From: an uncultured Acidimicrobiales bacterium
GTDB lineage: Bacteria > Actinomycetota > Acidimicrobiia > Acidimicrobiales > AC-14
Reading direction: 5' to 3'
Assembly: GCA_902805665.1 (NCBI GenBank)
Contig: CADCTB010000025.1
Span: 1 to 32,873 of the forward strand
DNA: 32,873 bases
The notes under the pieces were generated by a model. The model was given only the letters and a program-made list of their open reading frames with translations, searched no databases and had not been told where the DNA came from. Every line of letters starts with the position of its first letter. Position 1 is the stretch's first letter. Position numbers and translations under genes: made by a program. This document shows, one piece after another, positions 13,615 through 31,876 of this stretch.

Positions 13615-14883
13615 TCACGCGGCGGCTTCCTGATTCTGCTCGTTGGGACGCTCGACGATCACCCCCTTGTCGAACTTGGCGCCGGCCCTGACAAGGGCGA
13701 CGAGGTGGGGAGCGTTGACCGACCGCCACCGCTGCTCGGCCGCCTCGATGAGCTTGAAGGCCATGGCCAGGCCGGCCGCCCGTGAGCCCGGGCCCTTGGT
13801 GACCTTGGTGCGCAGACGCACGGTGGCGAAGGTCGACTCGATCGGGTTGGTCGTCCTCAGGTGGATCCAGTGCTCGGCCGGGAAGTCGTAGAAGGCGAGC
13901 AGCGGCACGGCGTCGTCGACGATCTTGGCCACCGCCTTGGGCCACTTCACGGCGAACTCGCCGGCGAAGGCGTCGATGGCCCTGACCGCATGCTCACGGT
14001 CCTCGGCGTCGCGGATCTCGCCCAGCATCCGCTTCGCCGTCGGCTGCACGGACTTGGGCAGTGCGTTGAGGCAGTTCGCCACTTTGTGAACCCAGCACCG
14101 GGCCTCGGTGGTCTCGGGCCACACCGTGCGCAGCGCGGCCCAGAACCCGAGGGCGCCGTCACCCACGGCCACCATCGGCGCCCCCATGCCCCGGCACTTG
14201 AGGTCCCGCAGCAGGTCCGCCCAGCTGTCGGTCGACTCCCGGTGGCCGTCGGTGATGGCCACGAGCTCCTTGGTCCCGTCGGCCCGCACGCCCACGACGA
14301 CCAGGGCGCACAGTCGTGCCTCCTCCAGACGCACGTTGAAGTGGATGCCGTCGGCCCAGATGTACACGTAGTCACGGTCGTCGAGCCGGCGCTCGGCGAA
14401 GTCCCGCTGGTCGGCCTGCCATTGCTTGGTCAGCCGGGTGATGACCGACGCCGATAGGCCGGCGGCCGAGCCGAAGAACTCCTCGAGGGCAGGGGCGAAG
14501 TCGCCCGAGCTCATGCCGTGCAGGTACATAAGCGGCAGCACCTCGGCCACCTTGGGGCTCTTGCGGCACCACGGCGGCACGATGGCCGAGCGGAAGCGGC
14601 AACGCTGGCCGGTCTCGTCGTCGACCCGCCGGTCGTCCACCCGTGGCGCCTCGATCTCGATGCCGCCCGCCGCGGTGGTGATGGTGCGAGTCTCGGCGTG
14701 ACCGTTGCGCACGACCAGGCGATGGCCCTCGTCGTCGAGCTCGCCTACAAGCGCTTCGATGTAGCCGGCTACCTCTGTTTCGAGAGCGGCGGCCAGCATG
14801 CGCCGGGCGCCCTCCCGGACGATCTCGTCCAGCCCGGCGGCCATGTCCGCGTGGGCGTTGTCATCGGTGACTACTGTCAACAT
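13615..14883 (-). CDS. IS256-family transposase
   Basis: 422 aa DDE transposase of the mutator/IS256 family. Catalytic Asp in YVYIWADGIHFN, second Asp in MVAVGDGALGFW, and Glu in RTTNPIESTFATVRLRT, with the typical CWVHKVANCLNALPKS between them. The track ORF starts at 14979 inside the inverted repeat; the ATG at 14883 is preceded by GGGAAGGAA at good spacing and starts MLTVVTDDNAHADMAAGLDE. The frame is intact, so the element may be active. Confidence 0.95.
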   Translation of the reverse strand: MLTVVTDDNAHADMAAGLDEIVREGARRMLAAALETEVAGYIEALVGELDDEGHRLVVRNGHAETRTITTAAGGIEIEAPRVDDRRVDDETGQRCRFRSAIVPPWCRKSPKVAEVLPLMYLHGMSSGDFAPALEEFFGSAAGLSASVITRLTKQWQADQRDFAERRLDDRDYVYIWADGIHFNVRLEEARLCALVVVGVRADGTKELVAITDGHRESTDSWADLLRDLKCRGMGAPMVAVGDGALGFWAALRTVWPETTEARCWVHKVANCLNALPKSVQPTAKRMLGEIRDAEDREHAVRAIDAFAGEFAVKWPKAVAKIVDDAVPLLAFYDFPAEHWIHLRTTNPIESTFATVRLRTKVTKGPGSRAAGLAMAFKLIEAAEQRWRSVNAPHLVALVRAGAKFDKGVIVERPNEQNQEAAA

Positions 14884-14972
14884 CGGCGTTCCTTCCCGCC
14901 GGCGTCTCACCGCCGGCGTGTCTCTCGTTTTGGTCAACGAGGAAGGTACGCCGCGCCCACGAACGGGTGGTC

Positions 14973-14983
14973 GATCCACAGGT
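14973..14983. repeat. IS256-family right inverted repeat core
   Basis: GATCCACAGGT, inverted match to 13589-13599, 90 bases upstream of the transposase ATG. Confidence 0.75.
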
Positions 14984-15240: not shown

Positions 15241-15307
15241 ACTGAGATGAGCCTCCGGAGCGAGTGTGGATCTGTCACGGAACCCACTCACCACGGAGGC
15301 TCTCAGT
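15241..15307 (+). promoter_or_regulatory. hairpin masking the transposase ribosome site
   Basis: GAGCCTCCG (15249-15257) pairs perfectly with CGGAGGCTC (15294-15302). The stem extends through ACTGA (15241-15245) and TCAGT (15303-15307) after a three-base bulge, and a further GAGTG/CACTC pair lies inside the loop. The right arm contains the GGAGG ribosome site and the first bases of the GTG start, so folding of a read-through transcript would block translation. Mechanism inferred from geometry. Confidence 0.6.
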
Positions 15308-16256
15308 GCACCGTAACGCTCGACTGACTCCCGAAGGTCGATTGCTTCTCTGTCAACGCATCGAGGCCGGCTGGCCGGTCGCCCACGTGGCCGAAGCCAT
15401 GGGCATGTCCCGAGACCGGGCGTATGTCTGGTGGCGTCGCTACCAGGCCGAGGGCGTCGCCGGTCTCCAGGACCGGTCCAGCCGGCCTCGTCGCTGTCCG
15501 ACCAAGACGAAGGCCTCGAGGGAGCGACGCATCGTCTGGCTGCGCACCAACCGCGGTTACGGACCAGCCCGCATCGCCGGCATCATCAAGATGCCGTCCT
15601 CCACGGTGCACCGGGTGCTCCTCCGCCACGGCCTCAACCGCCTCGACTGCCTGGACCGCCCCACCAGGACGCCGATTCGCCGGATGGAGATGAGCCGCCC
15701 TGGCGAGCTGGTGCACATCGACGTGAAGAAGCTGGGGCGGATACCCAAGGGCGGCGGGTGGCGGGTCCACGGTCGGGCGGCACGACCCCACGACGGCCAC
15801 GCCAAGCGAGAGCGACCCGGCTACGCCTACGTCCACTCCGCTGTCGACGCCTACAGCCGCCTCGCCTACAGCGAGGTCCTGGCCGACGAGAAGGCGGCCA
15901 CCGCCGCCGGCTTCTGGGGCCGTGCGGCCGCCCACTTCAGCCGGATCGGGATCACGGTCGAACGAGTGCTCACCGACAACGGCAGCTGCTACCGCAGCAG
16001 GGACTTCGCCGTCGCTCTGGGCAGCATCGTCCACTCCCGGACACGGCCCTACCGTCCCGCCACCAACGGCAAGGTCGAACGGTTCAACCGCACCCTCTTG
16101 GCCGAGTGGGCCTATGCCCGACCGTGGAGCTCAGAGGGTCAGCGGAACCGGGCCTTGACGACCTGGCTCCACCGCTACAACCATCATCGACACCACACCG
16201 CGATCGGCGGCCCGCCCATGAGCCGTGTCAGCAACCTGTCTGGGCACTACAGCTAG
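15306..16256 (+). CDS. IS481-family transposase
   Basis: 316 aa. N-terminal helix-turn-helix (LLCQRIEAGWPVAHVAEAMG), then an rve integrase core: Asp in LVHIDVKKLGRI, Asp in VLTDNGSCYRS, and Glu in ATNGKVERFNRTL, completing the DDE triad. The start is GTG at 15306, seven bases after GGAGG; the longer track ORF starts upstream inside the hairpin. The frame is intact. The stop overlaps the end of the terminal repeat. Confidence 0.95.
   Translation: MHRNARLTPEGRLLLCQRIEAGWPVAHVAEAMGMSRDRAYVWWRRYQAEGVAGLQDRSSRPRRCPTKTKASRERRIVWLRTNRGYGPARIAGIIKMPSSTVHRVLLRHGLNRLDCLDRPTRTPIRRMEMSRPGELVHIDVKKLGRIPKGGGWRVHGRAARPHDGHAKRERPGYAYVHSAVDAYSRLAYSEVLADEKAATAAGFWGRAAAHFSRIGITVERVLTDNGSCYRSRDFAVALGSIVHSRTRPYRPATNGKVERFNRTLLAEWAYARPWSSEGQRNRALTTWLHRYNHHRHHTAIGGPPMSRVSNLSGHYS
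16220..16255. repeat. IS481-family right terminal inverted repeat
   Basis: Reverse complement begins TAGCTGTAGTGCCCA then GACAGG and TTGCTGACA, matching 15202-15236 with small differences. Confidence 0.88.
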
Positions 16257-16606: not shown

Positions 16607-17551
16607 TCAGGCGTTCGTGTGCGGGTCGAGGGCGTCGCGCAGACCCTGGCCCACGAAGTTCACGGCGAGCACGGTGAGGAGGATGGCCAGGCCGGGCGCG
16701 TAGACGAGGTAGGCCAGGTCGGTCCCCACCGCCCCTCGGGACTGCGAGAGCATGCTGCCCCATGAGACCGAAGGCGGCTGGATCCCGAAGCCCAGGAACG
16801 AAAGCGCCGATTCGGAGAGGATGGCGGCGCCGGCGGCCAGTGTGAGGTGCACGCAGATCGGGCCGACGACGCTCGGCAGCATCTCCGACACGATGATCCG
16901 GGTGCTCGACGCCCCCGACGCCCGGGCCGCCTCGACGAACTCCTGCTCCTTGAGCGACAGGAAAAGTCCACGCACGATTCGGGCCACCGAGCGCCAGAAC
17001 AGGAAGGCGAGAAGGAGGACGATTACGGTCAGCGAGCTGCCGAGGCCGCGCTGGGCCACCATGAGCAGCGCCGTCCCGGGGAGCACGAGGAGGAGGTCGA
17101 CGAGGCGCATCAAGGCCTGATCGACCCGGCCCCCGAAATACCCCGCCACCGCGCCCACTGTCGTCCCGATGATCGTGGACCCCAGCGCCACGCACAGCCC
17201 GACGAGGAGGGAGATCCTCCCCCCGTACAGCACCCGGGTCAGCTGGTCGCGACCCAGCTCGTCGGTGCCGAACAGATGGCGGAGCGACGGCGGCTGGCGG
17301 GACTGCGACAGCACCTCGGCGTCCAGTGTGGGATTGACCTCATACGGCGTGAGGAGCGGCGCCAGCACGGCGGACAGGGCGAGGAGCCCGAGGACCACCA
17401 GGCCCGCCATGGACACCTTGCGACGCCGGAACCGACGAGCCACCAGCCGCCATTGGGCGGCGGCCGGGGTGGCGGCGACGGCTCCGAGCGGGCCTGCGAC
17501 ATCGGGTGAGGGGAGTCGCGGCGGGCGGTCAGGCTCGACACCCACGGCCAT
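16607..17551 (-). CDS. ABC transporter permease, DppC/OppC type
   Basis: 314 aa. An N-terminal helix after RRRKVSMAGLVVLGLLALSA is followed by the periplasmic signature LRHLFGTDELGRDQLTRVLYGG. The binding-protein-dependent permease loop is EFVEAARASGASSTRIIVSEMLP, then SALSFLGFGIQPPSVSWGSM. Together with the upstream DppB-type gene it forms the membrane channel of a peptide or nickel-type importer. Its ATG at 17551 overlaps the last base of the upstream stop (TGATG). The 637-aa track ORF merges this gene with an antisense-free but meaningless frame upstream. No ATPase genes follow: the next DNA is convergent hydrolase remnant and IS. Confidence 0.93.
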   Translation of the reverse strand: MAVGVEPDRPPRLPSPDVAGPLGAVAATPAAAQWRLVARRFRRRKVSMAGLVVLGLLALSAVLAPLLTPYEVNPTLDAEVLSQSRQPPSLRHLFGTDELGRDQLTRVLYGGRISLLVGLCVALGSTIIGTTVGAVAGYFGGRVDQALMRLVDLLLVLPGTALLMVAQRGLGSSLTVIVLLLAFLFWRSVARIVRGLFLSLKEQEFVEAARASGASSTRIIVSEMLPSVVGPICVHLTLAAGAAILSESALSFLGFGIQPPSVSWGSMLSQSRGAVGTDLAYLVYAPGLAILLTVLAVNFVGQGLRDALDPHTNA

Positions 17552-18549
17552 CAGGACGACCGAACCCGCGGATCGAGGAAGCCGAGGAGCACGTCGGACA
17601 GGAGGACGAGGAGCAGGACGAAGGACGCGGCCACCATGAGCCAGGGGAGGATCACGTTCGTGTCGCCGGCACGGAGGGCGTTGAAGAACAGCTGTCCCAT
17701 CCCGGGGAGGGCGAAGATCGACTCGGTCACGATGACGCCGCCGAAGAGATGCCCGATCCCGACCGCCGAGATGGTGGTGAACGGGATGAGGGCGTTCCGG
17801 AGCGCATGTCGAACGAGCACCCGTCGCCGCGGGACGCCCTTCGCCTTGGCCATGCGGATGTAGGGCGCCGAGATCACATCGAGCATGGCGGCCCGGACGT
17901 AGCGGCTCCACGCCGCCGACAGAGGTAACGACAGCACCAGCACCGGAAGAGCGAGGTGGCGCAGGTAGTCGAGCGGCACGCCTTCGGTGGCGCTCCGCAT
18001 CCCTACGGAGAACAGGATCGGCTGGTCCAGTCCCAACTGCTGCCGCGGTCGGAACACGAACCACTCGATGGACAGGAGGGCGAACCAGAACGCCGGCATT
18101 GAGAGGGCGAGGATCGACAGCCCGGAGATGAGATGGTCGAGAGCCGAGTCGGGCCGGGACGCGCAGACGACCCCGACGAGCACGGCGATGGCGAGGGACA
18201 ACAGGATCGCCCACACCACCAGTTGGGTGGTGTTCCAAAGGCGCTGGCGGATCTCGGCGCCGACCGATCGACGGGAGACGATGCTCTCCCCCCAGTCGCC
18301 CCGCACGAAGTGCGACAACCAACTCAGGTACTGCTCGGCAAGCGGCCGGTCCAGCCCGAGCCGCTTCTCCTCGGACTCGATGAGGCCGGCGGTGCTCTCG
18401 GGCACCGACGCCGTGGGGTCCCCCGGGATGCCGCCCCTGAGGACGGAGAGCGGGTCGGTCGTGGTCCTCACGAACACGAACAGCACCATCGACGCGACGA
18501 GCAGAATTGCGCCCGACCAAACCAACCGCCGTCCGACCAGACCGATCAT
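17551..18549 (-). CDS. ABC transporter permease, DppB/OppB type
   Basis: 332 aa. It begins MIGLVGRRLVWSGAILLVAS, with the family's first helix and FVFVRTTTDPL, then RLGLDRPLAEQYLSWLSHFV and GDWGESIVSRRSV. The permease loop is YIRMAKAKGVPRRRVLVRHALRN, and TESIFALPGMGQLFFNALRA lies near the C-terminus. These are characteristic of DppB/OppB. It is overlapped by the DppC-type gene and preceded by a DUF1059 gene 49 bases upstream, so all three are probably one transcript driven from the heptamer site at 18787. No strong ribosome site precedes ATG 18549; an upstream in-frame start is possible. Confidence 0.93.
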   Translation of the reverse strand: MIGLVGRRLVWSGAILLVASMVLFVFVRTTTDPLSVLRGGIPGDPTASVPESTAGLIESEEKRLGLDRPLAEQYLSWLSHFVRGDWGESIVSRRSVGAEIRQRLWNTTQLVVWAILLSLAIAVLVGVVCASRPDSALDHLISGLSILALSMPAFWFALLSIEWFVFRPRQQLGLDQPILFSVGMRSATEGVPLDYLRHLALPVLVLSLPLSAAWSRYVRAAMLDVISAPYIRMAKAKGVPRRRVLVRHALRNALIPFTTISAVGIGHLFGGVIVTESIFALPGMGQLFFNALRAGDTNVILPWLMVAASFVLLLVLLSDVLLGFLDPRVRSS

Positions 18550-18598: not shown

Positions 18599-18763
18599 CT
18601 AGCCGCCGGGGCGCTCCGTCGTGTCGTTGGCCAGCCGCAGCACGAGCTCGGCCGAGAGCTGCATGCTGTGCACCTCCCGGGCGTGGATCTGGGCACGCAG
18701 GACCAGCTCGTCGTCGCCGTCGCCCGTCGCCTCGAAGCCACAGTCGCATCGCATGACTCTCAT
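18599..18763 (-). CDS. DUF1059 small protein heading the permease unit
   Basis: 54 aa and below the ORF-track cutoff. Translation gives MRVMRCDCGFEATGDGDDEL, then VLRAQIHAREVHSMQLSAEL, matching DUF1059: CxCG at the N-terminus, an acidic ELV segment, and the HAxxVHxM motif. The function of the family is unknown; the Cys and His residues could bind metal (inference). ATG at 18763 is chosen; an in-frame GTG lies nine bases upstream. The last operator heptamer ends 23 bases before ATG, almost the same geometry as the second DUF1059 gene at 21896. It is paralogous to 21896-22072 and to the decayed copy at 25191-25326. Confidence 0.82.
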   Translation of the reverse strand: MRVMRCDCGFEATGDGDDELVLRAQIHAREVHSMQLSAELVLRLANDTTERPGG

Positions 18764-18786
18764 CACGGACACGGTGACCTATCGGA

Positions 18787-18804
18787 TGTAGAGGCGGCGT
18801 AGAC
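18787..18804 (-). promoter_or_regulatory. SARP-type heptamer repeat, DUF1059-permease unit
   Basis: On the minus strand GTCTACG and CTCTACA are separated by exactly four bases (11-bp period). The same pattern occurs at five other promoters here. A TAnnnT hexamer is not found at the 9-bp position (TCACCG instead), though GATAGGT lies slightly closer. This is the weakest of the six sites for its -10, but the repeat itself is clear. Confidence 0.6.
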
Positions 18805-18817
18805 CCCGGCCAGGGAC

Positions 18818-18834
18818 GGCGGGTCCGGCCCGCC
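18818..18834 (-). terminator. GC-rich hairpin after the beta-barrel gene
   Basis: GGCGGG and CCCGCC with a five-base loop lie 23 bases beyond the stop of the 18857 gene and before the next operator. There is no T-run, so it is only a candidate terminator. Confidence 0.35.
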
Positions 18835-18856
18835 GCCCCTTCGCCGCGACCAACCA

Positions 18857-19360
18857 TCAGCCAACGGTCACGGTGCCGGTCGCCCTCACATAGGACATCT
18901 CGAAGATCGGCGGGGCGGTTTCCGGCAGGCAGCTGCCGTCAGCGTTGCGTCCGCGGATCACGGTGAGGTTGGCAACGGCCGTGCCGCCTCCGGTTGCGCC
19001 CGCGTACGCGCCGGTCCCGCCGGTGACGACCGCCGTGTGGGTGAACGTCAGACGGGCCACGCAGGTCGTGGGATTGAAGTCGAGCTGAGGCGGGCCGGCG
19101 GGGGTGATGGTCTGGTACAGATCGCCTTGCGGGAACATGAACTGGACCTGGAACGGGCCTCCGCGGGGGACCTGGAGCCGATTGTTCTCCTCGGTCCCTG
19201 CGCCGGTGATCAGCCCTTGGCCCACCACCGTGCCCGTGTTGGCCCCGATCTTCACAACGGTGAAGTCCTGACGGGCGGTCACGGCGGCGGCCGGGCCGGG
19301 GTTCCCCACGAGAACAGAGCCGGCGACGGCCGCGGTGAGGACAAGCTTCTTGATGTTCAT
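18857..19360 (-). CDS. secreted allene-oxide-cyclase/dirigent barrel-like protein
   Basis: 167 aa with a signal peptide (MNIKKLVLTAAVAGSVLVGN, cleavage near AAA-V). The mature region has LDFNPTTCVARLTFTHTAVV followed by TGGTGAYAGATGGG, the same blocks as in the protein at 4521-5015, so they are paralogues. ATG at 19360 follows AAAGGAG at good spacing. The upstream gap carries two RTCTACR-type heptamers and TAAGTT, giving an untranslated leader of about 50 bases. Function unknown; a secreted small-molecule-binding or adhesive barrel is possible. Confidence 0.8.
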   Translation of the reverse strand: MNIKKLVLTAAVAGSVLVGNPGPAAAVTARQDFTVVKIGANTGTVVGQGLITGAGTEENNRLQVPRGGPFQVQFMFPQGDLYQTITPAGPPQLDFNPTTCVARLTFTHTAVVTGGTGAYAGATGGGTAVANLTVIRGRNADGSCLPETAPPIFEMSYVRATGTVTVG

Positions 19361-19415
19361 GACGCTCCTTTGCGTGTAGGGCGGGAGGCCGCATCGGTGC
19401 CGCCTCTCGAACGGG

Positions 19416-19448
19416 AACTTAGGAAGGGGCTGTAGATCCGCTGTAGAT
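19416..19448 (-). promoter_or_regulatory. SARP-type operator and -10, beta-barrel gene
   Basis: On the minus strand two identical heptamers ATCTACA, spaced by GCGG (11-bp period), are followed nine bases later by TAAGTT at 19416-19421. The arrangement matches the known SARP promoter layout of direct repeats close to the -10 in place of a -35 element. Confidence 0.72.
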
Positions 19449-19455
19449 GGGCCGT

Positions 19456-20751
19456 TCAGGCCGGGACGATCCCGAAATAGACCTTGTACGAGCCGCCGAG
19501 CCCGGAGATCAAGTCGCTCTGCGCCTTGAACCCGATGCCGTCGAAGGTGCTGTTCTCCGTTCGAGCGGCCAGCACGACCATCTGCTTCGCCGACAGCGTC
19601 AGGGTCGACGCCCCGACGCGGTTGTCATCCCAGTCGAACAGGTCGTTGATGGCCCCGCTGATGCTGGGCATCAGAGTGCCCAACACGGGCCCTGCGATCG
19701 CGGCGGCCACGGGTCCCACGAGCGGAATCAGACCCAACGCCCCGGTGCCAACGGCGTGAACCCCCATGACGACGTCGTGAATCTGCTTCTTGTACTTGTC
19801 GGGATCGCCGTAGTCGTGTTCCATGAGCACGCTGCTGATATTGATCCCGTACGCTCGCCCCCGGTAGATCTCCAGGAGATCCGGGACCGAATCACCATCG
19901 TCGACGTCCTCGTCCTCGTAGATCCTGGTCCGCAGAGTGTCCGCGAACTTGGGGGTCGACACGCTCATGATCGCGTAGGGCTCGTCCGAACCCGGTCCGT
20001 CCGTTGTGCCGAGGCAATGCAGACCGGTGTAGTGGACCACCACGTCTCTGAGGTCGATTGCCCCTATGTCGCCCCACCAGTAGATGCCGCCGTGCTCGAA
20101 CTCGTTCACGCGGCCGCCCTCAGGCAGGTCGAGCGTGTCAGTGGTCGGGTAGCCCAGGTAGGAGGTCTCCCATCCCAGCGTCCCCCATTTCTCCCGGATG
20201 TCACCGTCGATCGTGTTGGCGCCCGTGTTCGGCGACCAGTAGATCGAGCCAGCGTTCATGAAGTGGTTGAAGCGTCCCACCCCGTCAGGCGTGGGCAACT
20301 CGTCAGTGACGGGGTAACCGAGCGGCGACCGCTCCCAGCCCAGGGACGCCCACTTCTTGCGAATCTCACCCATGATCGCTGCTGCCCCCGTTCCCGGGCT
20401 CCAGTAGATCGAGCAGGTGTTGTCGTTGAAGTGGCTGTATCGGCCCACGCCGTCGGGCGTCGATCGCTCATTGCTGCACGGGACTCCGAACTCCAGACCA
20501 CCGAGGCTGAGCCACTTCTTGTAGATGTCGCCCTCGATCACAAAGGCGCTGTGCATGGGTGCGTTGTAACAGACGGCCGCATTGGCGAACGTCCAGATCT
20601 TGCCTTCCTGCTTGGAGACGACCTCGCCCAGAGCGTTCTCCTGGCCGATGATGATCTGTCTGAAGCCGACGGCATCGTCGATCACGCGCTCCGCACTCCT
20701 GGAGGCCATGACGACGCTGTTATCGATTTCGGGGAACGAAAAGTTGGACAT
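19456..20751 (-). CDS. LGFP-repeat protein with hydrophobic C-terminal region
   Basis: 431 aa. Residues about 60-230 contain LGFP-type repeats: LGGLEFGVPCSNE, LGWERSPLGYPVTDE and LGWETSYLGYPTTDT, each followed by a YWSP or YWW block (SIYWSPGTG, SIYWSPNTG, GIYWWGDIG). LGFP repeats are known in actinobacterial envelope-associated proteins. The rest is unassigned: an acidic segment (YEDEDVDDGDSV), a hydrophobic glycine-rich stretch (LGLIPLVGPVAAAIAGPVLG) and a beta-rich end. No Sec signal peptide is visible at MSNFSFPEIDNSV, so its export route is unclear. ATG at 20751. It is preceded by a three-heptamer operator located inside the end of the DoxX-like gene. Confidence 0.8.
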   Translation of the reverse strand: MSNFSFPEIDNSVVMASRSAERVIDDAVGFRQIIIGQENALGEVVSKQEGKIWTFANAAVCYNAPMHSAFVIEGDIYKKWLSLGGLEFGVPCSNERSTPDGVGRYSHFNDNTCSIYWSPGTGAAAIMGEIRKKWASLGWERSPLGYPVTDELPTPDGVGRFNHFMNAGSIYWSPNTGANTIDGDIREKWGTLGWETSYLGYPTTDTLDLPEGGRVNEFEHGGIYWWGDIGAIDLRDVVVHYTGLHCLGTTDGPGSDEPYAIMSVSTPKFADTLRTRIYEDEDVDDGDSVPDLLEIYRGRAYGINISSVLMEHDYGDPDKYKKQIHDVVMGVHAVGTGALGLIPLVGPVAAAIAGPVLGTLMPSISGAINDLFDWDDNRVGASTLTLSAKQMVVLAARTENSTFDGIGFKAQSDLISGLGGSYKVYFGIVPA

Positions 20752-20800
20752 GAAGGCTCTCTTCTTTCGGTGTGGTTTTTGGTCAGGTGTCGCTGATGGG

Positions 20801-21760
20801 CTAGGCACGGTGACCGGGACCGGCCGCCACTTGCACAGTACGGATGACGTGTAGATCCGCCGTAGACTTTTCGTAGGGCATGGTCCCTCTGCCGCCGCGA
20901 TGCTCGGAAATCGGCCCATCGACGTCCTCGGCGGGACCGCCGCGCGGCGGGTCGCCGACAAGCCAGAACAGGGCCAGGGGCAGTACATAATCTCCGGCGC
21001 GCTCGACGAACTGGTAGTTGGGTTGGCCGACCAGAGGCCGAAGCAGTTCGGTGCCGAGCTTCCAGACCAGCACGAAGAGGAGCAGGTGGCGGAGCCGCTT
21101 GATCAGGACCGCAAGGCCGAGCACAACTTCTAAGGCGCCCACCCAGGGCATCAGGTCGGCAGCCTGCGAGGCGTCCGTCACACGGACCCACCCGAGGAAA
21201 TCGAACCACTCCTTCTTGGCCGCCCAGATGCCGAGACCACCGTGACCCACCAGTAGCAATGCGATGCTCACCCTCATCACCCAGGCCAGCCGTCGGGCGA
21301 GTTCCTCGCCGATCTCCTCAGGAGGCCGGACACGCTCGAACCATGACCACAGCGAGCGCCCGCCCCAGCCGGAAAGCACGAGCAGCGCCAGCGGCATGCC
21401 GAAGTTGGCGCCCCGCTCGACCAGTTCGAACCACGACTCTCCGGTCAACGGCCTCAACCACGCCGTCATCAGCCCCCACACCGCCATATGGGCCATCACG
21501 GCGCGCATGGGACGAACCAGCAGCAGAACGGCCAGAGCGATATCGACCGTTCCGATGATGACGAACATGTGGCTGGAGGCGAAGGTCTCCGGTATCCCGA
21601 AGAGGGTGAAATACGGGATCCAGCTCACCGGCCGGTAAAAGCCGGCCAAGCCGTGGCCGAGGAACTCCAAGACCACTCCGATTCGCAAGGCCCAGTGCAG
21701 CTTCACCGCCAAGGCTTGGGACACAGGTGCGACGACGGCGCGGGTGTCAGAACGGATCAT
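20801..21760 (-). CDS. DoxX-like membrane protein with internal duplication
   Basis: 319 aa with about eight hydrophobic helices. The two halves are similar: LEFLGHGLAGFY / LLLVGHGGLGIW, TVDIALAVLLLVRPM / ALEVVLGLAVLIKRL, WLRPLTGESWFELVERGANF / LLRPLVGQPNYQFVERAGDY. This suggests a duplicated four-helix DoxX-type unit. DoxX family members are small membrane proteins linked to redox or lipid processes; the role here is unknown. ATG at 21760 follows AGAGGAGCTTCG. The hydrophilic C-terminal tail overlaps the promoter of the downstream LGFP gene. Confidence 0.72.
   Translation of the reverse strand: MIRSDTRAVVAPVSQALAVKLHWALRIGVVLEFLGHGLAGFYRPVSWIPYFTLFGIPETFASSHMFVIIGTVDIALAVLLLVRPMRAVMAHMAVWGLMTAWLRPLTGESWFELVERGANFGMPLALLVLSGWGGRSLWSWFERVRPPEEIGEELARRLAWVMRVSIALLLVGHGGLGIWAAKKEWFDFLGWVRVTDASQAADLMPWVGALEVVLGLAVLIKRLRHLLLFVLVWKLGTELLRPLVGQPNYQFVERAGDYVLPLALFWLVGDPPRGGPAEDVDGPISEHRGGRGTMPYEKSTADLHVIRTVQVAAGPGHRA
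20835..20878 (-). promoter_or_regulatory. SARP-type operator with three heptamers, LGFP gene
   Basis: Minus strand: CCCTACG, GTCTACG and ATCTACA at exact 11-bp steps, then nine bases, then TACTGT (20835-20840). The site lies within the coding sequence of the DoxX-like gene's tail, which means the LGFP gene has its own promoter even though it follows in the same direction. Confidence 0.75.
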
Positions 21761-21792
21761 CGAAGCTCCTCTTGCGTAGGTCAGTCACCAGC

Positions 21793-21836
21793 AAGGTAAG
21801 GAGGATGCGTAGATCCTCAGTAGACGCGTCGTAGAC
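21793..21836 (-). promoter_or_regulatory. SARP-type operator with three heptamers, DoxX-like gene
   Basis: Minus strand: GTCTACG, GTCTACT and ATCTACG at 11-bp steps, then nine bases, then TACCTT (21793-21798). Back-to-back with the plus-strand site at 21856. Confidence 0.75.
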
Positions 21837-21855
21837 GGCGAGAGACGACAACGCC

Positions 21856-21888
21856 GTCTACGGAGTTTCTACGGCGGGTTGAGACACT
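21856..21888 (+). promoter_or_regulatory. SARP-type operator, DUF1059/binding-protein unit
   Basis: Plus strand: GTCTACG and TTCTACG at 11-bp spacing, then nine bases, then GACACT, a weak -10-like hexamer. The GTG start at 21896 lies seven bases after that hexamer, so the transcript may be leaderless. Confidence 0.65.
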
Positions 21889-21895
21889 CCCAACC

Positions 21896-22072
21896 GTGAG
21901 AGTCATCCGGTGCGACTGCGGGTTCGAGGTGTCCGAGGACGGTGACGAAGCGCTCGTCACCCGCGCCCAGGACCACGCGCAGGTCGTGCACGGCATGAAT
22001 CTTCCGGCGGAACTCCTGCTGGCGCTGGCCTCTACACTTCGGCCGAACGACACTGAGGAGGACGGCGGATGA
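21896..22072 (+). CDS. DUF1059 small protein, copy A
   Basis: 58 aa and below the ORF-track cutoff. It reads MRVIRCDCGFEVSEDGDEAL, then VTRAQDHAQVVHGMNLPAEL, matching DUF1059 by CxCG and HAxxVHGM. Close paralogue of the protein at 18599-18763, sharing MRVxRCDCGFE. The GTG start lies seven bases from a -10-like hexamer, suggesting leaderless translation. Its stop overlaps the start of the binding-protein gene (ATGA), implying translational coupling. Function unknown; repeated linkage to oligopeptide-transport genes suggests a role beside uptake. Confidence 0.85.
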   Translation: MRVIRCDCGFEVSEDGDEALVTRAQDHAQVVHGMNLPAELLLALASTLRPNDTEEDGG

Positions 22073-23703
22073 GCTCGCATCGAGGCGTCGGTCGATCGCT
22101 TGCGAAGGCCGGCCTGGTGTTGTCCCTCTTGGTGGCGTGCAGCGGCTCGGGCGACGACCGGGTGATCAGCCCCGAGCCGGGCGGCGAGCAGCCCCGCCAG
22201 GGGGGCACGATCGTGATCGGCGCCGGGGAGCCGATCTGTGCCGATTGGTACGCACCCTGTGGCGCCGGCAGCAACGGAATTCTTGTCCAGCACACCCTTC
22301 CCGCGCCGATGAGGTTCGTCGACGGTCAACACCGCCCGACGGCCCTTCTCGCCGGCGAACCGGTGGTCGACGCCGGACCGCCCCAACGGGTCACGTACCG
22401 CATCAACCCCCAGGCGGTCTGGTCGGACGGGACACCCATCACGGCCGCCGACTTCCGTTACTCCTGGGAACAGGGCCGGGCCACGGACATCCGAAGCATG
22501 GGCGACATCGCCGCCGTCGACGATGCCGACCCGACGACGGCGGTCGTCACCTGGCGAGTGCCGAGCGGGAACTGGCGGGACCGTTTCCAGCCGATCCTGC
22601 CCAGACACCTCCTCGAGGGCAAGGACCGCAACTCGGAGATGAAGGACGGGTACCGATTCTCCGGGGGACCTTGGATGCTCGACAACTGGACCCGGGGCCA
22701 GGAGTTCAAGATCGTCCGCAACCCCCGCTACTGGGGGAAGCCCGCCCACCTCGACGCGATCGTTTCCAGGGTTGCCGATGTCCCCGGCAGCCGGCAGGCC
22801 TATAAGACCGGCCAGATGGACATGATCATGCCGCCCGGCGCCGACGCCTCCATCCAGGAGTTCAAGGACATGCCCGATACTGCGTTCGAACCGATACCGA
22901 GCTCCGGGTTCAGCTTCTTCGTATTCAATACGCAGCGGCCACCATTGGACCGAAGGGCATTCCGCCAGGCCCTCGCCTTTGCGACGGACCGCGACGCCAT
23001 CGTGGCGCAACTGGCCGGTCCGATCTTTCCGGACGCCCGCCCGACCCAGGCGCTGGCGACGGCGGCCATTCCCGAGTGGTACAGCGAGCCCTTCTCCCGC
23101 TACCGGCGCGATCTCACAAGGGTGGCCGAGCTGATGCGGGCCGACGGCTGGGCGAAGGGACCGGACGGCATCTGGGCCCGAGGCGATGTCCGGGCGCGGG
23201 TCGAGCTGAGCGTCTCTGTGAACGTGCCATTCCAGGTGCTCCTCGCCCAGATCGTCGAGAGCCAGTGGAAGGAGGCCGGCTTCGACGCCAACACGCGGGC
23301 CATCGGGGCCGCCGCGCTGCTCGGGGACCTGGTCCCCAAGGCCAACTACCAGGTGCTCTTCACCGGAGTCGGTTACCCCACCGACCCGAGCCAGTGCGTC
23401 CGCTTCTGTTCGGACAGAATCCCCACCGAGGCGAACGGCTTCTCGGGCGGGAACGTCAGCCGCATCGCCAGTCCGGTGCTCGACGACATCTGGCGGCAGG
23501 TCGACCGAGAGCTCGATCGGGGAAAGCGGCGGGACCTCGTTCGAAGAGGCCAGGAGGCGCTGGCCGAGGAGTTGCCGGCATTCCCCTTGAGCAGCATCCG
23601 AGATGTTGCAGTGTTCAACAGCACGAAACTCGGCGGGCCCGTGGCGCTGACCCCCCCATACGCGGGGCTCAGCGAATGGTTCTGCAAGTCCACGTGCGGG
23701 TGA
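22069..23703 (+). CDS. oligopeptide-type ABC substrate-binding lipoprotein, copy A
   Basis: 544 aa of the SBP_bac_5 family. A lipoprotein signal (LVLSLLVACSGSG, lipid-modified Cys in LVAC) anchors it outside the membrane. Family blocks include YRINPQAVWSDGTPITAADF, then RYSWEQ, NPRYWGKPAHLDAI, and a ligand-domain YLR-like section SFFVFNTQRPPLDRRAFRQA. It delivers peptides or similar solutes to DppBC-type permeases, plausibly those encoded at 16607-18549. The start ATG overlaps the DUF1059 stop. Nearly identical to 25323-26954 along its length, with scattered substitutions (for example MDMIMPPGADASIQEF versus IDMIIDAGADPSIQEV) that may change ligand choice. The long minus-strand ORFs across it are shadows. 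Confidence 0.93.
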   Translation: MSSHRGVGRSLAKAGLVLSLLVACSGSGDDRVISPEPGGEQPRQGGTIVIGAGEPICADWYAPCGAGSNGILVQHTLPAPMRFVDGQHRPTALLAGEPVVDAGPPQRVTYRINPQAVWSDGTPITAADFRYSWEQGRATDIRSMGDIAAVDDADPTTAVVTWRVPSGNWRDRFQPILPRHLLEGKDRNSEMKDGYRFSGGPWMLDNWTRGQEFKIVRNPRYWGKPAHLDAIVSRVADVPGSRQAYKTGQMDMIMPPGADASIQEFKDMPDTAFEPIPSSGFSFFVFNTQRPPLDRRAFRQALAFATDRDAIVAQLAGPIFPDARPTQALATAAIPEWYSEPFSRYRRDLTRVAELMRADGWAKGPDGIWARGDVRARVELSVSVNVPFQVLLAQIVESQWKEAGFDANTRAIGAAALLGDLVPKANYQVLFTGVGYPTDPSQCVRFCSDRIPTEANGFSGGNVSRIASPVLDDIWRQVDRELDRGKRRDLVRRGQEALAEELPAFPLSSIRDVAVFNSTKLGGPVALTPPYAGLSEWFCKSTCG

Positions 23704-23722
23704 CACGCACCAGCGCAGGGGT

Positions 23723-24219
23723 TTAGCCCAGCTCGGAGGCCTGAGCGGCGAGGCGGACCAAACCGAGGAGCTTCGAACTCCTCCGCCCTTCCCTGCTCGA
23801 GCGCCAGCTTGCCCATCTGGACGGCCCACGGGCCCACCTGGGCTGCGCCGAGGCTCAGGTGCGCGCAGCGAGGGCCTCTCCGTCGCCAAACCGGCGGTCA
23901 GAAGGGCGCGTGTGCCCCGCGACAGCAGATTGTTCCAATGGGCAGCAGGGTTCTTGTAGTTCGACCGAGCGGCTCCCACCCTTCTAAGGCCGTCGTCGAA
24001 CCCGGTCAGGTCGCCGAGCGTGAGTCTGGCCAACGCCCGCCCACGGCAAGCTGTGAAACCAGCGCCTCGGCCAGCTCGTCCTTGACGACGGGGCGCCTGC
24101 CGCTCGGAGACGAGGTAGACCCCGGAGAGCCTGCCGCTGGGTCCCAAGCGGTCCATCTCGACTGGGATGTCGTCGACGGCGATCTCCACGAGGCCGGCGA
24201 CTGAGATCCTCAGCGGCAG
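23723..24219 (-). pseudogene. remnant of a SARP-type regulator, copy A
   Basis: The minus strand reads IAVDDIPVEMDRLGPSGRL, then VYLVSER, matching the N-terminus of the intact regulator at 26974-30489. An extra base then shifts the frame, and the text jumps to RALARLTLGD and KNPAAHWNNLLSRG, which belong to the intact protein's C-terminal third. A further jump joins MGKLALEQGRAEEFE to the last residues LAAQASEL. The intact ATG is CTG here. It is therefore a dead copy with at least two large internal deletions. Confidence 0.85.
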
Positions 24220-24551
24220 ATCACCAACCTACGTCCGGCAACATTCGCCGGCCGATGGAAGTCCGTCTACAGCGGATCTACAGCTGTTTCCTAGGGTCTC
24301 GTTCGAGAAGCCGCACTGAGACAGCCTCCCCAGCCCCGGTGTCAAGGAGCTGAGGATGCTTGATGCTGACAACGCTGTTTCAACGCGAAACCAGGGGACG
24401 GAACACCGCCAACAATACCGCACCATCAACGAGAGAAGGAGCAAGAACGATGATGAAGGGCAGCCCTGATATGGCGCCGAGAACACAGCCAACCCACTTT
24501 TCCCGCAGTGCTCCGTCGGCAGGGTTGGACCGACACAACAACGGAGGCGAC
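24220..24551. other. intergenic region with operator and long leader
   Basis: Apart from the heptamer operator at 24265-24297, this stretch has no clear gene. A 37-codon ORF from ATG 24356 (MLDADNAVSTRNQ) follows AAGGAGCTGAGG, and another ATG at 24450 after AGAAGGAG is in frame with the downstream gene. Either could be a leader peptide or an alternative start. A leader of roughly 250 bases is unusually long for this locus. Confidence 0.4.
24265..24297 (+). promoter_or_regulatory. SARP-type operator and -10, PPNPA gene
   Basis: GTCTACA and ATCTACA are separated by GCGG (11-bp period), then nine bases, then TAGGGT (24292-24297). The sequence from the first heptamer to the -10 closely resembles the operator of the beta-barrel gene at 19416-19448. 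Confidence 0.75.
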
Positions 24552-25004
24552 ATGCCTATTCGACGTGTTCTGTTCTGGGTGCTGAGTTTGGGCCTGCTGT
24601 TCCTCGGTACCGGCTTCACAAACGGGGCCAGCGCGGACACGGGGTGCGGTGAGGACTGCGCTCCCGAACCCCTGAGCTCGTATTTCACTGAGCTGGCCGA
24701 CGCCACGCTCGTGTACTACCCGCCCAATCCCGCCACCGAGCAGTTGGTCAGCAGAGTCCTACGCGCCCGAGACGCGCTGTATCCGCCGAATCCTGCCCGA
24801 CCGCCGGCACCGATTCGGTCTTTCGCACTGCTGAACAGCTACTCGTACGAAGTGGAGGCCCTTGCGGGCACTCCGAACGGGGCAACGGAGACCGGTACCG
24901 CCCTTCTGCTCGGTGAAGCCTATGAGCTGCAGGGGCTGATAGCGGCTGCTTACCCGAGCTCGCATTTCCCGCCCAGCGCCTTCCATCCGCCCAATCCCGC
25001 TTGA
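24552..25004 (+). CDS. small secreted protein with three PPNPA repeats
   Basis: 150 aa with a signal peptide (MPIRRVLFWVLSLGLLFLG, cleavage near ASA-D). The mature protein begins DTGCGEDCAPEP and contains VYYPPNPATEQ, ALYPPNPARPP and a C-terminal AFHPPNPA, so an aromatic/His-PPNPA motif occurs three times, the last at the very end. I do not recognise a family. ATG 24552 follows GGAGGCGAC; the track ORF starts earlier (TTG 24360), and an alternative in-frame ATG is at 24450. The signal peptide directly after 24552 decides the start. The operator upstream puts it in the proposed SARP regulon, and it may share a transcript with the binding protein at 25323. Confidence 0.7.
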   Translation: MPIRRVLFWVLSLGLLFLGTGFTNGASADTGCGEDCAPEPLSSYFTELADATLVYYPPNPATEQLVSRVLRARDALYPPNPARPPAPIRSFALLNSYSYEVEALAGTPNGATETGTALLLGEAYELQGLIAAAYPSSHFPPSAFHPPNPA

Positions 25005-25190
25005 GACCTAGCGCAACAGCTGACCGCGGCTGCCGGCAAAGGCCGAAGAAGAAGCGGCCGTTCGCCGTTGAGATCGAGGCCAGCTGACCGCTCACGCCTT
25101 CGCCGAGGACTCGGCCCGCAAGAAGGTCGAGAAGGCGTTCGCAAGCGGCCGACCGCTCGGCGGCGATGTCAGCGCCGGAGTGTCGACCCA

Positions 25191-25326
25191 CGAGGTTGTA
25201 ACGCCTCGTCGCCCGTGCCCAGGACCACGCGCAGAGAGCGCATGGCATGGTTTGCTCAGAGGAAAGTCGTGCCGGCGCTGGCCCCTACACTTCGGCCTGA
25301 AAGACACTGAGGAGGACGGCGGATGA
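25191..25326 (+). pseudogene. decayed DUF1059 gene, copy B
   Basis: From about 25191 the DNA aligns with the second half of the DUF1059 gene at 21896-22072: CGCCCAGGACCACGCGCAG in copy A is GTGCCCAGGACCACGCGCAG here, and ACACTGAGGAGGACGGCGGA is shared just before the binding-protein start. Small indels break the frame and the CxCG-encoding 5' half is missing. The ATGA junction with the binding-protein gene is retained. Confidence 0.8.
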
Positions 25327-26954
25327 GTTCGCATCGAAGCGTCGGTCGGTTCCTGCCGGCGGCCGGCCTGGCGTTGACCCTCTTGGTGGCGTGCAGCGGT
25401 CCGGGAGACGACCGAGTGATCAGCCCGGAGCCGGCGGCCGAGCAACCCCGCCAGGGCGGCACCATCGTGATCGGCGCCGGCGAGCCAGCCTGTGCCGACT
25501 GGTACGCACCCTGTGGCGCCGGCAACAACGGGATTCTTGTCCAGCACACCCTTCCCGCGCCGATGAGGTTCGTCGACGGTCAACATCGCCCAACCGCTCT
25601 TCTCGCCGGGGAGCCGGAGGTTGAGCCCGGACCACCCCAACGCGTCACGTACCGCATCAATCCCCAGGCGGTCTGGTCGGACGGGACACCCATCACGGCC
25701 GCCGACTTCCGTTACTCCTGGGAACAGGGTCGAGCCACCGACGTCCGAGGCATGGGCGACATCGCCGGCGTCGACGATGCCGACCCGACGAGGGCGGTCG
25801 TCACCTGGCGGGAACCGAGTGGCAACTGGCGCGACCGCTTCCAGCCGATCCTGCCGAGACACCTCCTCGAGGGCAAGGACCGCACCGCGGAGATGAAGGA
25901 CGGCTACCGGTTCTCTGGGGGACCGTGGATGCTCGACCACTGGACCCGTGGCCAGGAGTTCAAGATCGTCCGCAACCCCCGGTACTGGGGGAAGCCCGCC
26001 CACCTCGACTCAGTGGTGTCGAGGGTGGTCGATATTCCCGGCAGGCGGCAAGCGTACAAGACCGGCCAGATCGACATGATCATCGACGCCGGCGCCGACC
26101 CCTCCATTCAGGAGGTCAGGAGCATGCCCGATACCGCGTTCGAACTTATCCCAAGCTCGGGCTCCAGCTTCTTCGTGTTCAACACCCAGCGGCCACCTTT
26201 CGACCGGTCGCCATTCCGCCAAGCGCTCGCCTATGCCACGGACCGCGACGTCATCGTGAGGCAGTTGGCAGGTCAGATCTTTCCCGATGCCCGTCCCACC
26301 CACGCGCTGGCGACGGCTGTCATCCCCGAGTGGTACAGCGAGCCCTTCGCCCGTTACCGCCGCGACCTCACAAAGGTGGCCGAACTGATGCGGGCCGACG
26401 GATGGGCGAAGGGACCCGACGGCGTCTGGGCCAGAGGCGACGTGCGGGCGCGGGTCGAGCTGAGCGTCGCCGCCGCCGTCCAATTCCAGGTGCTCCTCGC
26501 ACAGATCGTCGAAAGCCAGTGGAAGGAGGCCGGCTTCGACGCCACGACGCGGGCGGCCGGGCCCGCGCTGGTCGGGGACCTGGTCCCCAAGGGCAACTAC
26601 CAGGTGTACTTCACCGGAGTCGGTTACCCGACCGACCCAGGCCAGTGCGTCCGATTCTGTTCCAACAGGATCCCCACCGAGGCGAACGGGTTCTCGGGCG
26701 GGAACATCAGCCGCATCGCCAGTCCGGTGCTCGACGACATCTGGCGGCAGGTCGACCGCGAGCTCGATCGGGAGAAGCGGCGGAACCTCGTTAGACGAGG
26801 CCAGGAGGCACTGGCCGACGAGGTACCGGCCTTCCCTTTGAGCACTTTCCGGGATGTGGCCGTATACAACACCACGAAGCTCGGAGGGCCCGTGGCGCTG
26901 ACCCCCCCGCACGCGGGGCTCAGCGATTGGTTCTGCAAGACCACCTGCGGGTGA
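25323..26954 (+). CDS. oligopeptide-type ABC substrate-binding lipoprotein, copy B
   Basis: 543 aa, SBP_bac_5 family, with lipobox LVAC in LALTLLVACSGPG. It shares almost all blocks with copy A (YRINPQAVWSDGTPITAADF, NPRYWGKPAHLD, FFVFNTQRPP, and C-terminal LSDWFCKTTCG versus LSEWFCKSTCG). ATG at 25323 lies downstream of GAGGAGGACGGCGG, still overlapping the broken DUF1059 stop. I saw no heptamer operator in the 300 bases upstream, so expression may come by read-through from the PPNPA promoter at 24265. It is convergent with the regulator, 19 bases apart. Confidence 0.93.
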   Translation: MSSHRSVGRFLPAAGLALTLLVACSGPGDDRVISPEPAAEQPRQGGTIVIGAGEPACADWYAPCGAGNNGILVQHTLPAPMRFVDGQHRPTALLAGEPEVEPGPPQRVTYRINPQAVWSDGTPITAADFRYSWEQGRATDVRGMGDIAGVDDADPTRAVVTWREPSGNWRDRFQPILPRHLLEGKDRTAEMKDGYRFSGGPWMLDHWTRGQEFKIVRNPRYWGKPAHLDSVVSRVVDIPGRRQAYKTGQIDMIIDAGADPSIQEVRSMPDTAFELIPSSGSSFFVFNTQRPPFDRSPFRQALAYATDRDVIVRQLAGQIFPDARPTHALATAVIPEWYSEPFARYRRDLTKVAELMRADGWAKGPDGVWARGDVRARVELSVAAAVQFQVLLAQIVESQWKEAGFDATTRAAGPALVGDLVPKGNYQVYFTGVGYPTDPGQCVRFCSNRIPTEANGFSGGNISRIASPVLDDIWRQVDRELDREKRRNLVRRGQEALADEVPAFPLSTFRDVAVYNTTKLGGPVALTPPHAGLSDWFCKTTCG

Positions 26955-26973: not shown

Positions 26974-29900
26974 TCAGCTCAGCTCGGAGGCCTGAGCAGC
27001 GAGGCGGGCCATACCGAGACCCTCGGCGGTCTCGACGGCGGACTTCAGGAGGGATCGAGCCCGCTCGGCGTCACCAGGTCGGCCTCGTTGCAGAAGCATG
27101 CGGCCGTACCAGTATCGGGTCCGGGCCAGAAGCGGTGGCGAACGGAGGCCGGTCTCGAGCTCGATCGCCGCGATGTAGTGGGCCTCGGCCTCGTCCCACC
27201 GGCCGAGGGTGGCGGCCAGCTGACCCAGGTAGCGGTCGACGGCACCAGGACAGTGGGCGCCCAGGCCGGAGACGGCGGCCAGTCCGGAGTAAGGAAGGTA
27301 CAGCTGGTACACCCGTTCGGCCAGGTCCACCTGCCCGAGGGCGACAACCGTCTCGGCCACGTAGGCGAAGCCCGTGCTCGTCATACCCCGGAGTACGCGC
27401 CGGAAGTCGTCGGCCGCCAGCTCCTCGAAGATCCGGTGGGCAGCGTCGTGCCGGCCGGTCTCTGCGTGCGTGCAGGCGAGCATCGCCCTGAGCGCGGTGT
27501 TTCCGGGGACGGCTGTGGAGATACGGACCATCTCACTCTCGAACTCCCCCGCACGTCCCTGCTCGAGCGCCAGCTTGCCCATCTGGATGGCCCAGGGATC
27601 AACCTGGATCGAGACCAGGTCCAGGTGCGCCGAAGCGAGCGCCTCCACCTCGCCGAACCGCCCGTCGAGAAGGGCGAGGGTGCCACGCCACAGCAGATCG
27701 TTCCACTGGGCTGCCGGGTTCTGAAGTTCGCCCGAGCGGACCTTCAACGTTCCCGCGTCGTCCTCGAACCGGGCCCGGTCGCCGAGGGTGAGCCGCGCCA
27801 ACGCCCGGGTACGACCCAGGCTGTGGAACCATCGACTTGGGCCGGCCACTGGACCGGACACCGTGCCGAGGGTGACCAGCTCATCTTCCAAGGCGAGCCA
27901 TTCGCTGGCGCGCGGTGACTCGTTGACGAACCACTTGCAGCCCACCAGCGCGGCGTGGACCGCGTCGGTGTCGCCCGACTCCCGAGCCAGCGCGAGTGCA
28001 GTTCGAGCCGTGGTCTCGGCGCCGCGGGCATCGCTATGACGAGCGCTCACCGCCAGGCCCGCCATCAGCCGGGCGCGGAGGTGCGGCGCTGATTCACCGA
28101 GGCCTTGCAGCGTCTCGTGGGCCACTTCGGCGACGTGGGTATCGATCCGGCCGGTCAGGAGATAGAGGCTGGTCGCCCGGGCCAGTTGCTCCGGCGACCC
28201 GAGCAGTTGTGCCGTTTCGACGGCGTCAAGGAGCGCCATACGGGCCCACCGAAAGTCCGGGACGATCATCAGGGTCTCGTAGCGGAGTAGGACGAGCTCG
28301 AAGCGCAGCGCGAGGTGAGCCGGCTCCGCCGGCGAAAGCACATCGAGGCCCGACTTCACATAGACCAGAACGTCCTCCCATGCCGACTTGTCGAAGGCCT
28401 GGCGGGCCGCGGTGAGGGCGTAGTTCCCCGCCTCGGTGGCAGCGCCGTCGGCCGCAGCCTCGACGAAGTGGTGGGCGAGCGACGGTAGACGGACGTCGTG
28501 ATCGCCGGGAAGCGACGCCAACGCATTCCCCACGTGGTGGTGCAGCCTGGCCCTACGCGTGGCCGTGAGCGCCGAATAGATGGTCTCCCGCACCAAGGCG
28601 TGGGCGAACCGGTAGTGGCCCGTCCCCATCTCGACGACGACCTGGGCCTCGACGGCCTGGTCGAGGGCGTCAAGGGCCACGTCGTCACCGGCCGGCCCGG
28701 TGAGGTGCTCCAGGAGCGCCAGGTCGAACTCCGCACCGATGACCGAGGCCATCGTCAGCACCCGATTGGCCGGCTCGGAGAGCCGGCCCAGCCGGCGGGA
28801 CAGCACGTCCCGGACGCCCTCGGGCACGCCCAGGTGCTCGGAGTCCTCGTAGTAGCTCCAGGTCCCGTCCCGCCGGTACACGACGCCGGTCTCGGCCACG
28901 TAGCGCAGGAACTCGCCCACGAAGAATGGGTTGCCGGCGGTGCGGGCGTGCAACGCCCGGGCCAGGGCGTGCTGGTCGATGCCGTCGGGGCTGCCGGTCC
29001 GCTCGACGAAGGCCGAGACCCCTTCCTCCTCCAGCCCCTCGAGCACGATCCGCTCGACGCCGGGCTCCCGCCACAGGTCGGCGAGCGTCGCGGCCAAGGG
29101 GTGGTCGGCTCCGACTTCGGTGTGGCGGTAGGTGCCGATGACGACTAGGGGGGCCGTCCTCGCCCGGGCCACGTGGCGAAGCAGCGCGAGGGTCGGAGGC
29201 GCGGCCCAGTGCAGGTCATCGAGCACGAGCAGGAGGGGGCCACGGTGCGTCGCCCGGTCGACCAGGTCCGCCACCGCCTGGAACAGCCGGTAGCGGTCGC
29301 CGTCAGAACCAGTGGCCAGCGGTGGCTGATCGGGGAGTCGGCGCATCAGCTCCGGCGCGACGCGGCTGACCTCGGCGCCGTGGGTGTCCACGTGGGCGCC
29401 CAACTCAGGCAGCGGGCAATGGGCCACGTAGTGGCCGAGGGCTTCGGCGAAGGGCTGATAGGCCACGCCCAGCTCCTCGTCGCAGCGCCCGTAGAGGACC
29501 CGGGCGCCGCTGGCGTGGGCCTCGCGGGCGAAGTCGGAGACCAGCGTCGTCTTGCCCATACCCGGCTCCCCGGCGACCAGCACGACCTGGCGGCCAGTCG
29601 ATGTCGCCCGCTCGAGGGCCCCCCGGAGGTGGTCGGACTCGGTCTTTCGCCCGACGAGGAAGCTGTGTGCTGTAGGGGCCAGGGCCAGCGGCAGCGGAAT
29701 CCGGGAGTCCTCCGATGTCTCGGGAGGCGCCTCGTCGCTCAGGAGGGAGATGTAGATGCTCTCGGTCGCCGCGGAGGGGCTGGCACCCAGTTCCTCGGCC
29801 AGAACCCGCCGGCAGCGCTCGTAGGCACGCAATCCCTCCGCCGGATTGCCTGCGCCGCGGTGGGCCGCCATCAGGGCCTGGTGGGCGGACTCGCGGAACG

Positions 29901-31678: not shown

Positions 31679-31695
31679 GCGGACTATTGCGGACT
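31679..31695 (+). repeat. GCGGACT direct repeat, pair left of the tRNA fragment
   Basis: GCGGACT occurs at 31679-31685 and 31689-31695, 10 bp apart, in the same orientation as the three copies at 31909-31941. Confidence 0.6.
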
Positions 31696-31758
31696 CACTT
31701 GGCTGCGTGCAACGAGCCGGTCGACGGCGATATGGCCTCTGACCTGCACTTTTGTGAG

Positions 31759-31820: not shown

Positions 31821-31876
31821 GACCAGGGGTTTTGCCACAAAACCGCAGGTCGGAGCGCTTTTTCTTCCACCTTGTT

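Follow-up and report, generated by a model that had tools for sequence, protein, structure and literature searches.

Direct repeats resembling SARP operators, and a subfamily of AfsR-like large SARPs, in an uncultured Acidimicrobiales bacterium

In Streptomyces coelicolor, the large SARP AfsR has operators in which direct repeats are spaced by 11 bp and the 3' one lies 8 bp from the -10 element (PMC10936776), and SARP operators of such geometry are already known elsewhere (PMC10972967, PMC5930380). Here, we describe direct repeats of this kind, and a gene for a large SARP close to them, in a contig of an uncultured Acidimicrobiales bacterium (GCA_902805665.1, CADCTB010000025.1). The window, meaning the whole stretch of 32,873 nucleotides that was analysed, is one contig (C25) of the 227 in a 3.52-Mb draft genome. 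Judging from sequence comparisons, the repeats are very probably bound by AfsR-like large SARPs of a lineage-specific subfamily, which would directly activate modules built on DUF1059 and OppA genes.

Putative operator repeats in the window and in the genome

An earlier note on this DNA had described heptamer direct repeats with 11-bp spacing at six places, each a short way upstream of a gene and in its orientation. Both statements stand: TCTAC-N6-TCTAC has seven exact matches at six places, all in 18788-24281, while 60 Markov-simulated windows contained none, and all six operators have the orientation of the gene starting close downstream. Moreover, CTAC pairs occur eight times at 11-bp spacing and at most three times at every other spacing from 4 to 40. 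Two of the six places, 20850 and 21808, hold three repeats each. The putative SARP operators are:

18788-18803, minus strand: two repeats, exact TCTAC-N6-TCTAC, before DUF1059-OppB-OppC; weak -10 CACCGT at 18771-18776
19416-19447, minus strand (repeats 19432-19447): -10 TAAGTT, before the gene of a secreted barrel-like protein; Shine-Dalgarno (SD) sequence and ATG 55 nt downstream
20835-20877, minus strand: two exact repeats and one partial repeat, -10 TACTGT, before the LGFP protein gene
21793-21835, minus strand (repeats 21809-21835): three repeats, -10 TACCTT, before the gene of a membrane protein that the earlier note called DoxX-like
21857-21872, plus strand: two repeats, before DUF1059-OppA; weak -10 GACACT
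24266-24297, plus strand (repeats 24266-24281): -10 TAGGGT, before the gene of a protein with PPNPA motifs, the second OppA gene lying further down

At four of these (19431, 20850, 21808 and 24265), the TAnnnT hexamer listed follows the last RTCTACR heptamer by exactly nine bases, as had been claimed. At the 18788 and 21857 operators, the DUF1059 start codons lie only ~5-8 bases past the weak -10 candidates, so that transcripts from these sites would be leaderless, which is probably the case for the DUF1059-OppA transcript from the 21857 operator. For comparison, the -10 of the AfsR-activated afsS promoter is CACTGT (PMC10936776).

The draft genome was searched by pattern scans, with the reversed pattern as control. 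TCTAC-N6-TCTAC gave 21 exact matches (seven on C25, 13 on contig C159 and one on contig C44) versus three in the control, and 16 versus none when TAnnnT was required at 10 or 11 bases after TCTAC; the motif is thus not equally frequent at unrelated promoters. Allowing one mismatch brought the sites to 18 in all, again with none in the control and none beyond these three contigs. The operators are therefore confined to two contigs, which carry five SARP genes, and to one clean promoter on C44. This last site (L025 7597-7608) has the full consensus and stands before a small secreted protein gene; the 16 kb examined here contain no gene for a SARP.

The aligned sites of this genome yield the consensus TCTACRS-n4-TCTACRS-n8/9-TYCKTAGGTT, in which the T and C preceding the -10 are invariant across the 16 training sites. 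Start codons mostly lie ~20-80 nt below the -10 and are accompanied by SD sequences; the C159 sites, too, are upstream of genes, with good start sites in most. Near-identical sites are found at 19432, 24266 and C159:39523, which by their sequence are probably duplicated promoters, and also before two FtsH copies.

That the repeats are fortuitous, or belong to a dispersed repeat or the end of a transposon, is scarcely credible, even if transposase-like open reading frames (ORFs) lie nearby and some sites are clearly duplicated promoters. Chance is ruled out by the simulations and the reversed-pattern controls, the latter giving zero once the -10 is included. As for a dispersed element, conservation is limited to the heptamers, the TYC and the -10, the spacers being variable, and different genes carry the sites in different genera.

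The SARP subfamily and the putative operators that accompany it

The gene that the earlier note had assigned to a SARP reads as follows:

26974-30489, minus strand: AfsR-like large SARP, with a winged helix-turn-helix (wHTH)-BTAD part at residues 1-250, a NOD/AAA_16 NTPase at 278-451 and a TPR region to the C-terminus

By sequence and by modelled fold, the assignment is borne out and the product is a member of the SARP family, with an OmpR-type winged helix followed by BTAD. Pfam called BTAD (E=5.6e-19), AAA_16 at 278-451 and weak TPR matches at ~1087-1143, and did not call Trans_reg_C in this protein; a PDB sequence search found EmbR and AfsR. Given that the full-length AlphaFold2 (AF2) model was poor at the wHTH, residues 1-260 were modelled separately (pLDDT 94), and the wHTH-BTAD fold matched AfsR (8k60, a transcription complex) and EmbR (2fez, 2ff4) with TM scores of 0.80-0.86. 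The C-terminal half of the full-length model is helical throughout, with the STAND-TPR protein 6mfv as the top fold match. The window SARP thus has the architecture of AfsR-type large SARPs, a NOD/STAND NTPase plus a C-terminal TPR part, and the sites in the window and genome have the form of SARP targets, that is, heptamer direct repeats at 11 bp with the 3' one ~8 bp from the -10. It scored 66 bits against the NCBIfam AfsR equivalog, whose cut-off is 1430, and is therefore a relative of AfsR, not an orthologue. In our reading of the alignment, the backbone-contacting residues R87, S91 and R94 of AfsR (contacts from PMC10936776) are kept as R68, S72 and R75, whereas the base-contacting T88 and R92 are G69 and K73, a change consistent with a different heptamer.

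Within the family, full-length homologues of this SARP with at least 43% identity are encoded at G001:C78, G002:C35, G005:C12, G005:C49 (three) and G005:C53 (G, genome; C, contig), the homologous records in GTDB being Acidimicrobiia metagenome-assembled genomes (nzgw82-84), a group to which the window genome would, by kinship, also belong. In relatives, the operator coincides with a full-length homologue at 12 of 12 loci, one of them with the variant TCAAC, and was found at none of 14 other SARP loci with either the strict or the loose pattern. In G001, G002 and G005, the operators stand next to the full-length homologues, before genes for OppA, FtsH and a membrane protein that is also under the operator on C159. 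Conservation of the motif extends to the promoters of homologous genes in further species and genera: before FtsH in three genomes, OppA in three and a membrane-protein gene in two. A promoter element common to the whole lineage was rejected as an explanation of the repeats, since nine genomes of the family or order that lack the SARP subfamily give none once the -10 is required.

We also scanned 2.29 Mb of loci blind to the heptamer, accepting any 7-mer that recurs at 11 bp and is followed by TYC-TAnnnT at the proper distance. There were 22 matches, versus four in the reversed control; 20 belong to the system of the subfamily and two lie at more distant SARPs. TCAAC repeats occur exactly twice in G005, flanking the divergent SARP of G005:C53, and not at all in five other genomes. 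A CTCGCG pair in G009 precedes a leaderless DUF1059 gene, divergent from a SARP gene, and a TTGCG pair in G007 is divergent from a gene for a cyclase-SARP protein, with DUF1059 two genes later; each is a single case, and both have the spacing and -10 of the TCTAC operators. The -10 block (TCCGTACGGT) is common to the variants while the heptamer differs. That the heptamer changes with the SARP while the -10 block stays is the strongest argument for SARPs reading the heptamers. The cyclase-SARP gene (L225 624-4064, minus strand) encodes an adenylate/guanylate cyclase-like domain fused before a wHTH-BTAD part 42% identical to the window SARP, and it lies beside a gene for a protein like those binding cyclic nucleoside monophosphates (cNMP) and a DUF1059 gene, with the variant operator present.

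The same loci share a gene content. OppA adjoins 11 of 12 SARPs of the subfamily versus 2 of 86 other SARP loci, a figure that rules out the pairing as a general SARP trait, and short DUF1059 genes lie beside OppA at most subfamily loci. Across ten SARP-OppA pairs, the protein distances correlate for the C-terminal part of the SARP (Mantel r 0.56, p 0.007) and less so for the whole protein (r 0.43, p 0.07).

Overall, direct activation by the SARP subfamily is supported by the sites, the promoter geometry, the restriction to the subfamily, the conservation across genomes and the change with divergent SARPs; actual binding, activation and the assignment of paralogues to sites we infer. Two or three SARP protomers would sit side by side on the TCTACRS repeats, which would take the place of a -35 element ~8-10 bp upstream of the TAnnnT -10. 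Like AfsR, the bound SARPs would draw in RNA polymerase and sigma region 4, and so switch on the DUF1059-OppA lipoprotein modules along with the genes for OppBC(DF) permeases, for the additional FtsH proteases and for proteins that are secreted or at the surface.

Several observations weigh against this interpretation. Many SARPs with a similar wHTH (~50% identity, e.g., at G000:C91) have no such repeat nearby. The -10 is good in four of the six window operators, 18788 and 21857 offering weak candidates only. Given that some sites are duplicated promoters, the independent sites number fewer than 18, below the raw count. Finally, linked genes co-diverge anyway, so that the co-divergence of the SARP C-terminus with OppA is weak evidence.

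The repeats might instead serve another regulator encoded elsewhere, the SARPs being mere neighbours of its regulon, which we regard as quite improbable. Such a regulator would account for the C44 site without a nearby SARP, and for the fact that the repeat is not obvious in the promoters of the SARP genes themselves. However, the presence of sites tracks the SARP subfamily across genera, their sequence shifts with divergent SARPs at the SARPs' own loci, and their geometry is that of SARP operators (PMC10936776). The earlier note had proposed more narrowly that the window SARP controls the unit beside it. What holds of this, by sequence, is that the sites track the SARP subfamily; the confinement to the window does not, as the regulon extends to the C159 cluster and the C44 promoter. 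Moreover, with at least five such SARPs in the genome, the window SARP is not necessarily the only or the main regulator of the six sites.

Genes under the putative operators and the possible signal

The genes of the window that bear on the proposed regulon are:

16607-17506, minus strand: OppC-type permease (PF00528 and PF12911)
17551-18537, minus strand: OppB-type permease (PF00528)
18623-18757, minus strand: short DUF1059 protein (CDCGFE...; PF06348 match at 18641-18745)
18857-19360, minus strand: ORF for a secreted barrel-like protein; its paralogue at C159:39609-40112 carries the same operator
19456-20751, minus strand: LGFP-repeat protein (PF08310)
20801-21760, minus strand: ORF for the membrane protein; the name DoxX-like was not confirmed, as Pfam gave no match
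21896-22072, plus strand: short DUF1059 protein (PF06348)
22069-23703, plus strand: OppA-type solute-binding lipoprotein (PF00496, E=4.6e-53)
24555-25004 (ATG at 24553), plus strand: secreted protein with three PPNPA motifs
25323-26954, plus strand: second OppA-type lipoprotein, convergent with the SARP gene (PF00496, E=6.2e-55)

Four further SARP genes (50-72% identity) and four OppA genes lie in the second cluster, on C159, along with DUF1059 genes, OppBC, a fused OppDF, two genes for FtsH, the copy of the barrel gene and other genes for secreted or membrane proteins. The extra FtsH proteases (L022 11826-13682 and L023 3862-5718) are closely similar and both stand under a SARP operator; HEAGH and Walker A are intact, and the one tested against NCBIfam scored above the FtsH equivalog cut-off. 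Membership in a defence system was considered and nothing convincing was found, the FtsH-like protein matching AAA models and being FtsH by NCBIfam.

The interval between the two OppA genes of the window contains the decayed remains of a SARP gene copy and of a DUF1059 copy (23703-24200, minus strand, and ~25170-25300, plus strand); from these remnants, the DUF1059-OppA-SARP module seems to have been tandemly duplicated, with one SARP copy then decaying. The cluster is bordered by two transposase-like ORFs (13615-14979, minus strand, and 15264-16256, plus strand), IS256-like and IS481-like by eye, and C159 likewise bears a transposase-like fragment. Closely similar stretches also lie beside both SARP clusters (window 31649-32098, C159 46732-47229). 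A tRNA integration site common to both was discarded, ARAGORN finding no tRNA there.

The putative targets, namely Opp, DUF1059, FtsH, secreted and membrane proteins, do not form a biosynthetic gene cluster of the kind that antibiotic-cluster SARPs control. As to what the SARPs respond to, we consider on balance probable a regulon for nutrient scavenging and the envelope, in which intracellular metabolites or kinase signals act on the SARPs, and these step up peptide uptake and the envelope proteins, signalling between cells playing no part. AfsR is modulated by phosphorylation and nucleotide binding (PMC10936776), and the targets are transporters, membrane proteases and surface proteins; the recurrent one-to-one pairing of SARP and OppA is not explained by this reading itself.

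The pairing makes a peptide ligand plausible, although nutrient sensing fits equally. A tentative proposal is that a processed peptide enters through Opp and is bound by the SARP TPR part, and that the SARP activates the genes of its own importer and of the secreted proteins, much as in RRNPPA quorum sensing with a SARP DNA-binding domain. OppA at 11 of the 12 loci, OppBC(DF) and FtsH proteases within the same clusters, candidate secreted products under the operator and a co-divergence with OppA that is strongest for the C-terminal part of the SARP would all suit such a circuit. However, no short RRNPPA-type propeptide gene was recognised among the ORFs examined, no dedicated small-ORF search having been made; OppA-type proteins accept many ligands; and the co-divergence may reflect simple linkage. 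The PPNPA protein is an orphan of ~150 amino acids whose third motif falls exactly at the C-terminal end. It has no homologue in the 20 relatives searched and, being present only in its own genome among these, is unsupported as a conserved signal precursor, which also speaks against the circuit. It may be entertained, as a possible but doubtful conjecture, that the NOD-TPR part responds to a peptide linked to the OppA importer next to it. We think it unlikely that Acidimicrobiia-type actinobacteria possess, more broadly, a modular and repeatedly duplicated peptide-sensing system, in which each large SARP is paired with its own OppA and DUF1059, diverged branches use private heptamer codes (TCTAC, TCAAC, CTCGCG, TTGCG), and imported peptides act on the SARP TPR part in partly insulated circuits.

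Comparison with known SARPs and peptide receptors

A literature search for SARPs together with oligopeptide-binding proteins returned nothing relevant and no description of such a regulon, most subscription journals being outside its coverage. The SARP mechanism is known; what is new is the TCTAC consensus, the variants that track the regulator and a non-antibiotic regulon that is present in several copies and based on DUF1059-OppA modules. For large SARPs that lie outside antibiotic clusters, this provides a regulon both sharply defined and falsifiable, in a group of which few members have been cultured. The natural pairs of diverged regulators and diverged operators can be used to study how SARP winged helices read DNA, and the tight pairing with OppA hints at where the signal perceived by the NOD-TPR half of large SARPs might be sought.

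With the RRNPPA receptors that depend on Opp import (PMC9765709, PMC10569065), the window SARP shares a resemblance only, that of a cytoplasmic TPR regulator tied to an oligopeptide importer; it differs in its DNA-binding domain, its extra NTPase and the lack of an adjacent short propeptide among the ORFs examined, within the limit given above. EmbR of Mycobacterium tuberculosis (2fez, 2ff4) has the same SARP-domain fold (TM ~0.82-0.86), but its C-terminus is an FHA domain in place of NOD-TPR. PimR-type SARP-LAL regulators (PMC5930380) also use two or three heptamers with 4-bp spacers and have a large C-terminal NTPase part, whereas their consensus is CGGCAAG, their operator lies off the -35, and they act on the single target pimM in an antibiotic cluster.

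AfsR with its afs box (PMC10936776; 8hvr, 8k60) has the wHTH-BTAD-NOD-TPR architecture in common with the window SARP, and the SARP-domain folds are alike (TM ~0.81). In both cases, the operators, putative ones here, are direct repeats at 11-bp spacing that cover the -35 zone a short distance ahead of a weak -10. The heptamer is TCTACRS here versus CGTTYATC for AfsR, and where AfsR acts on afsS, the putative targets here are Opp, DUF1059, FtsH and secreted proteins, with five paralogues of the regulator in one genome.

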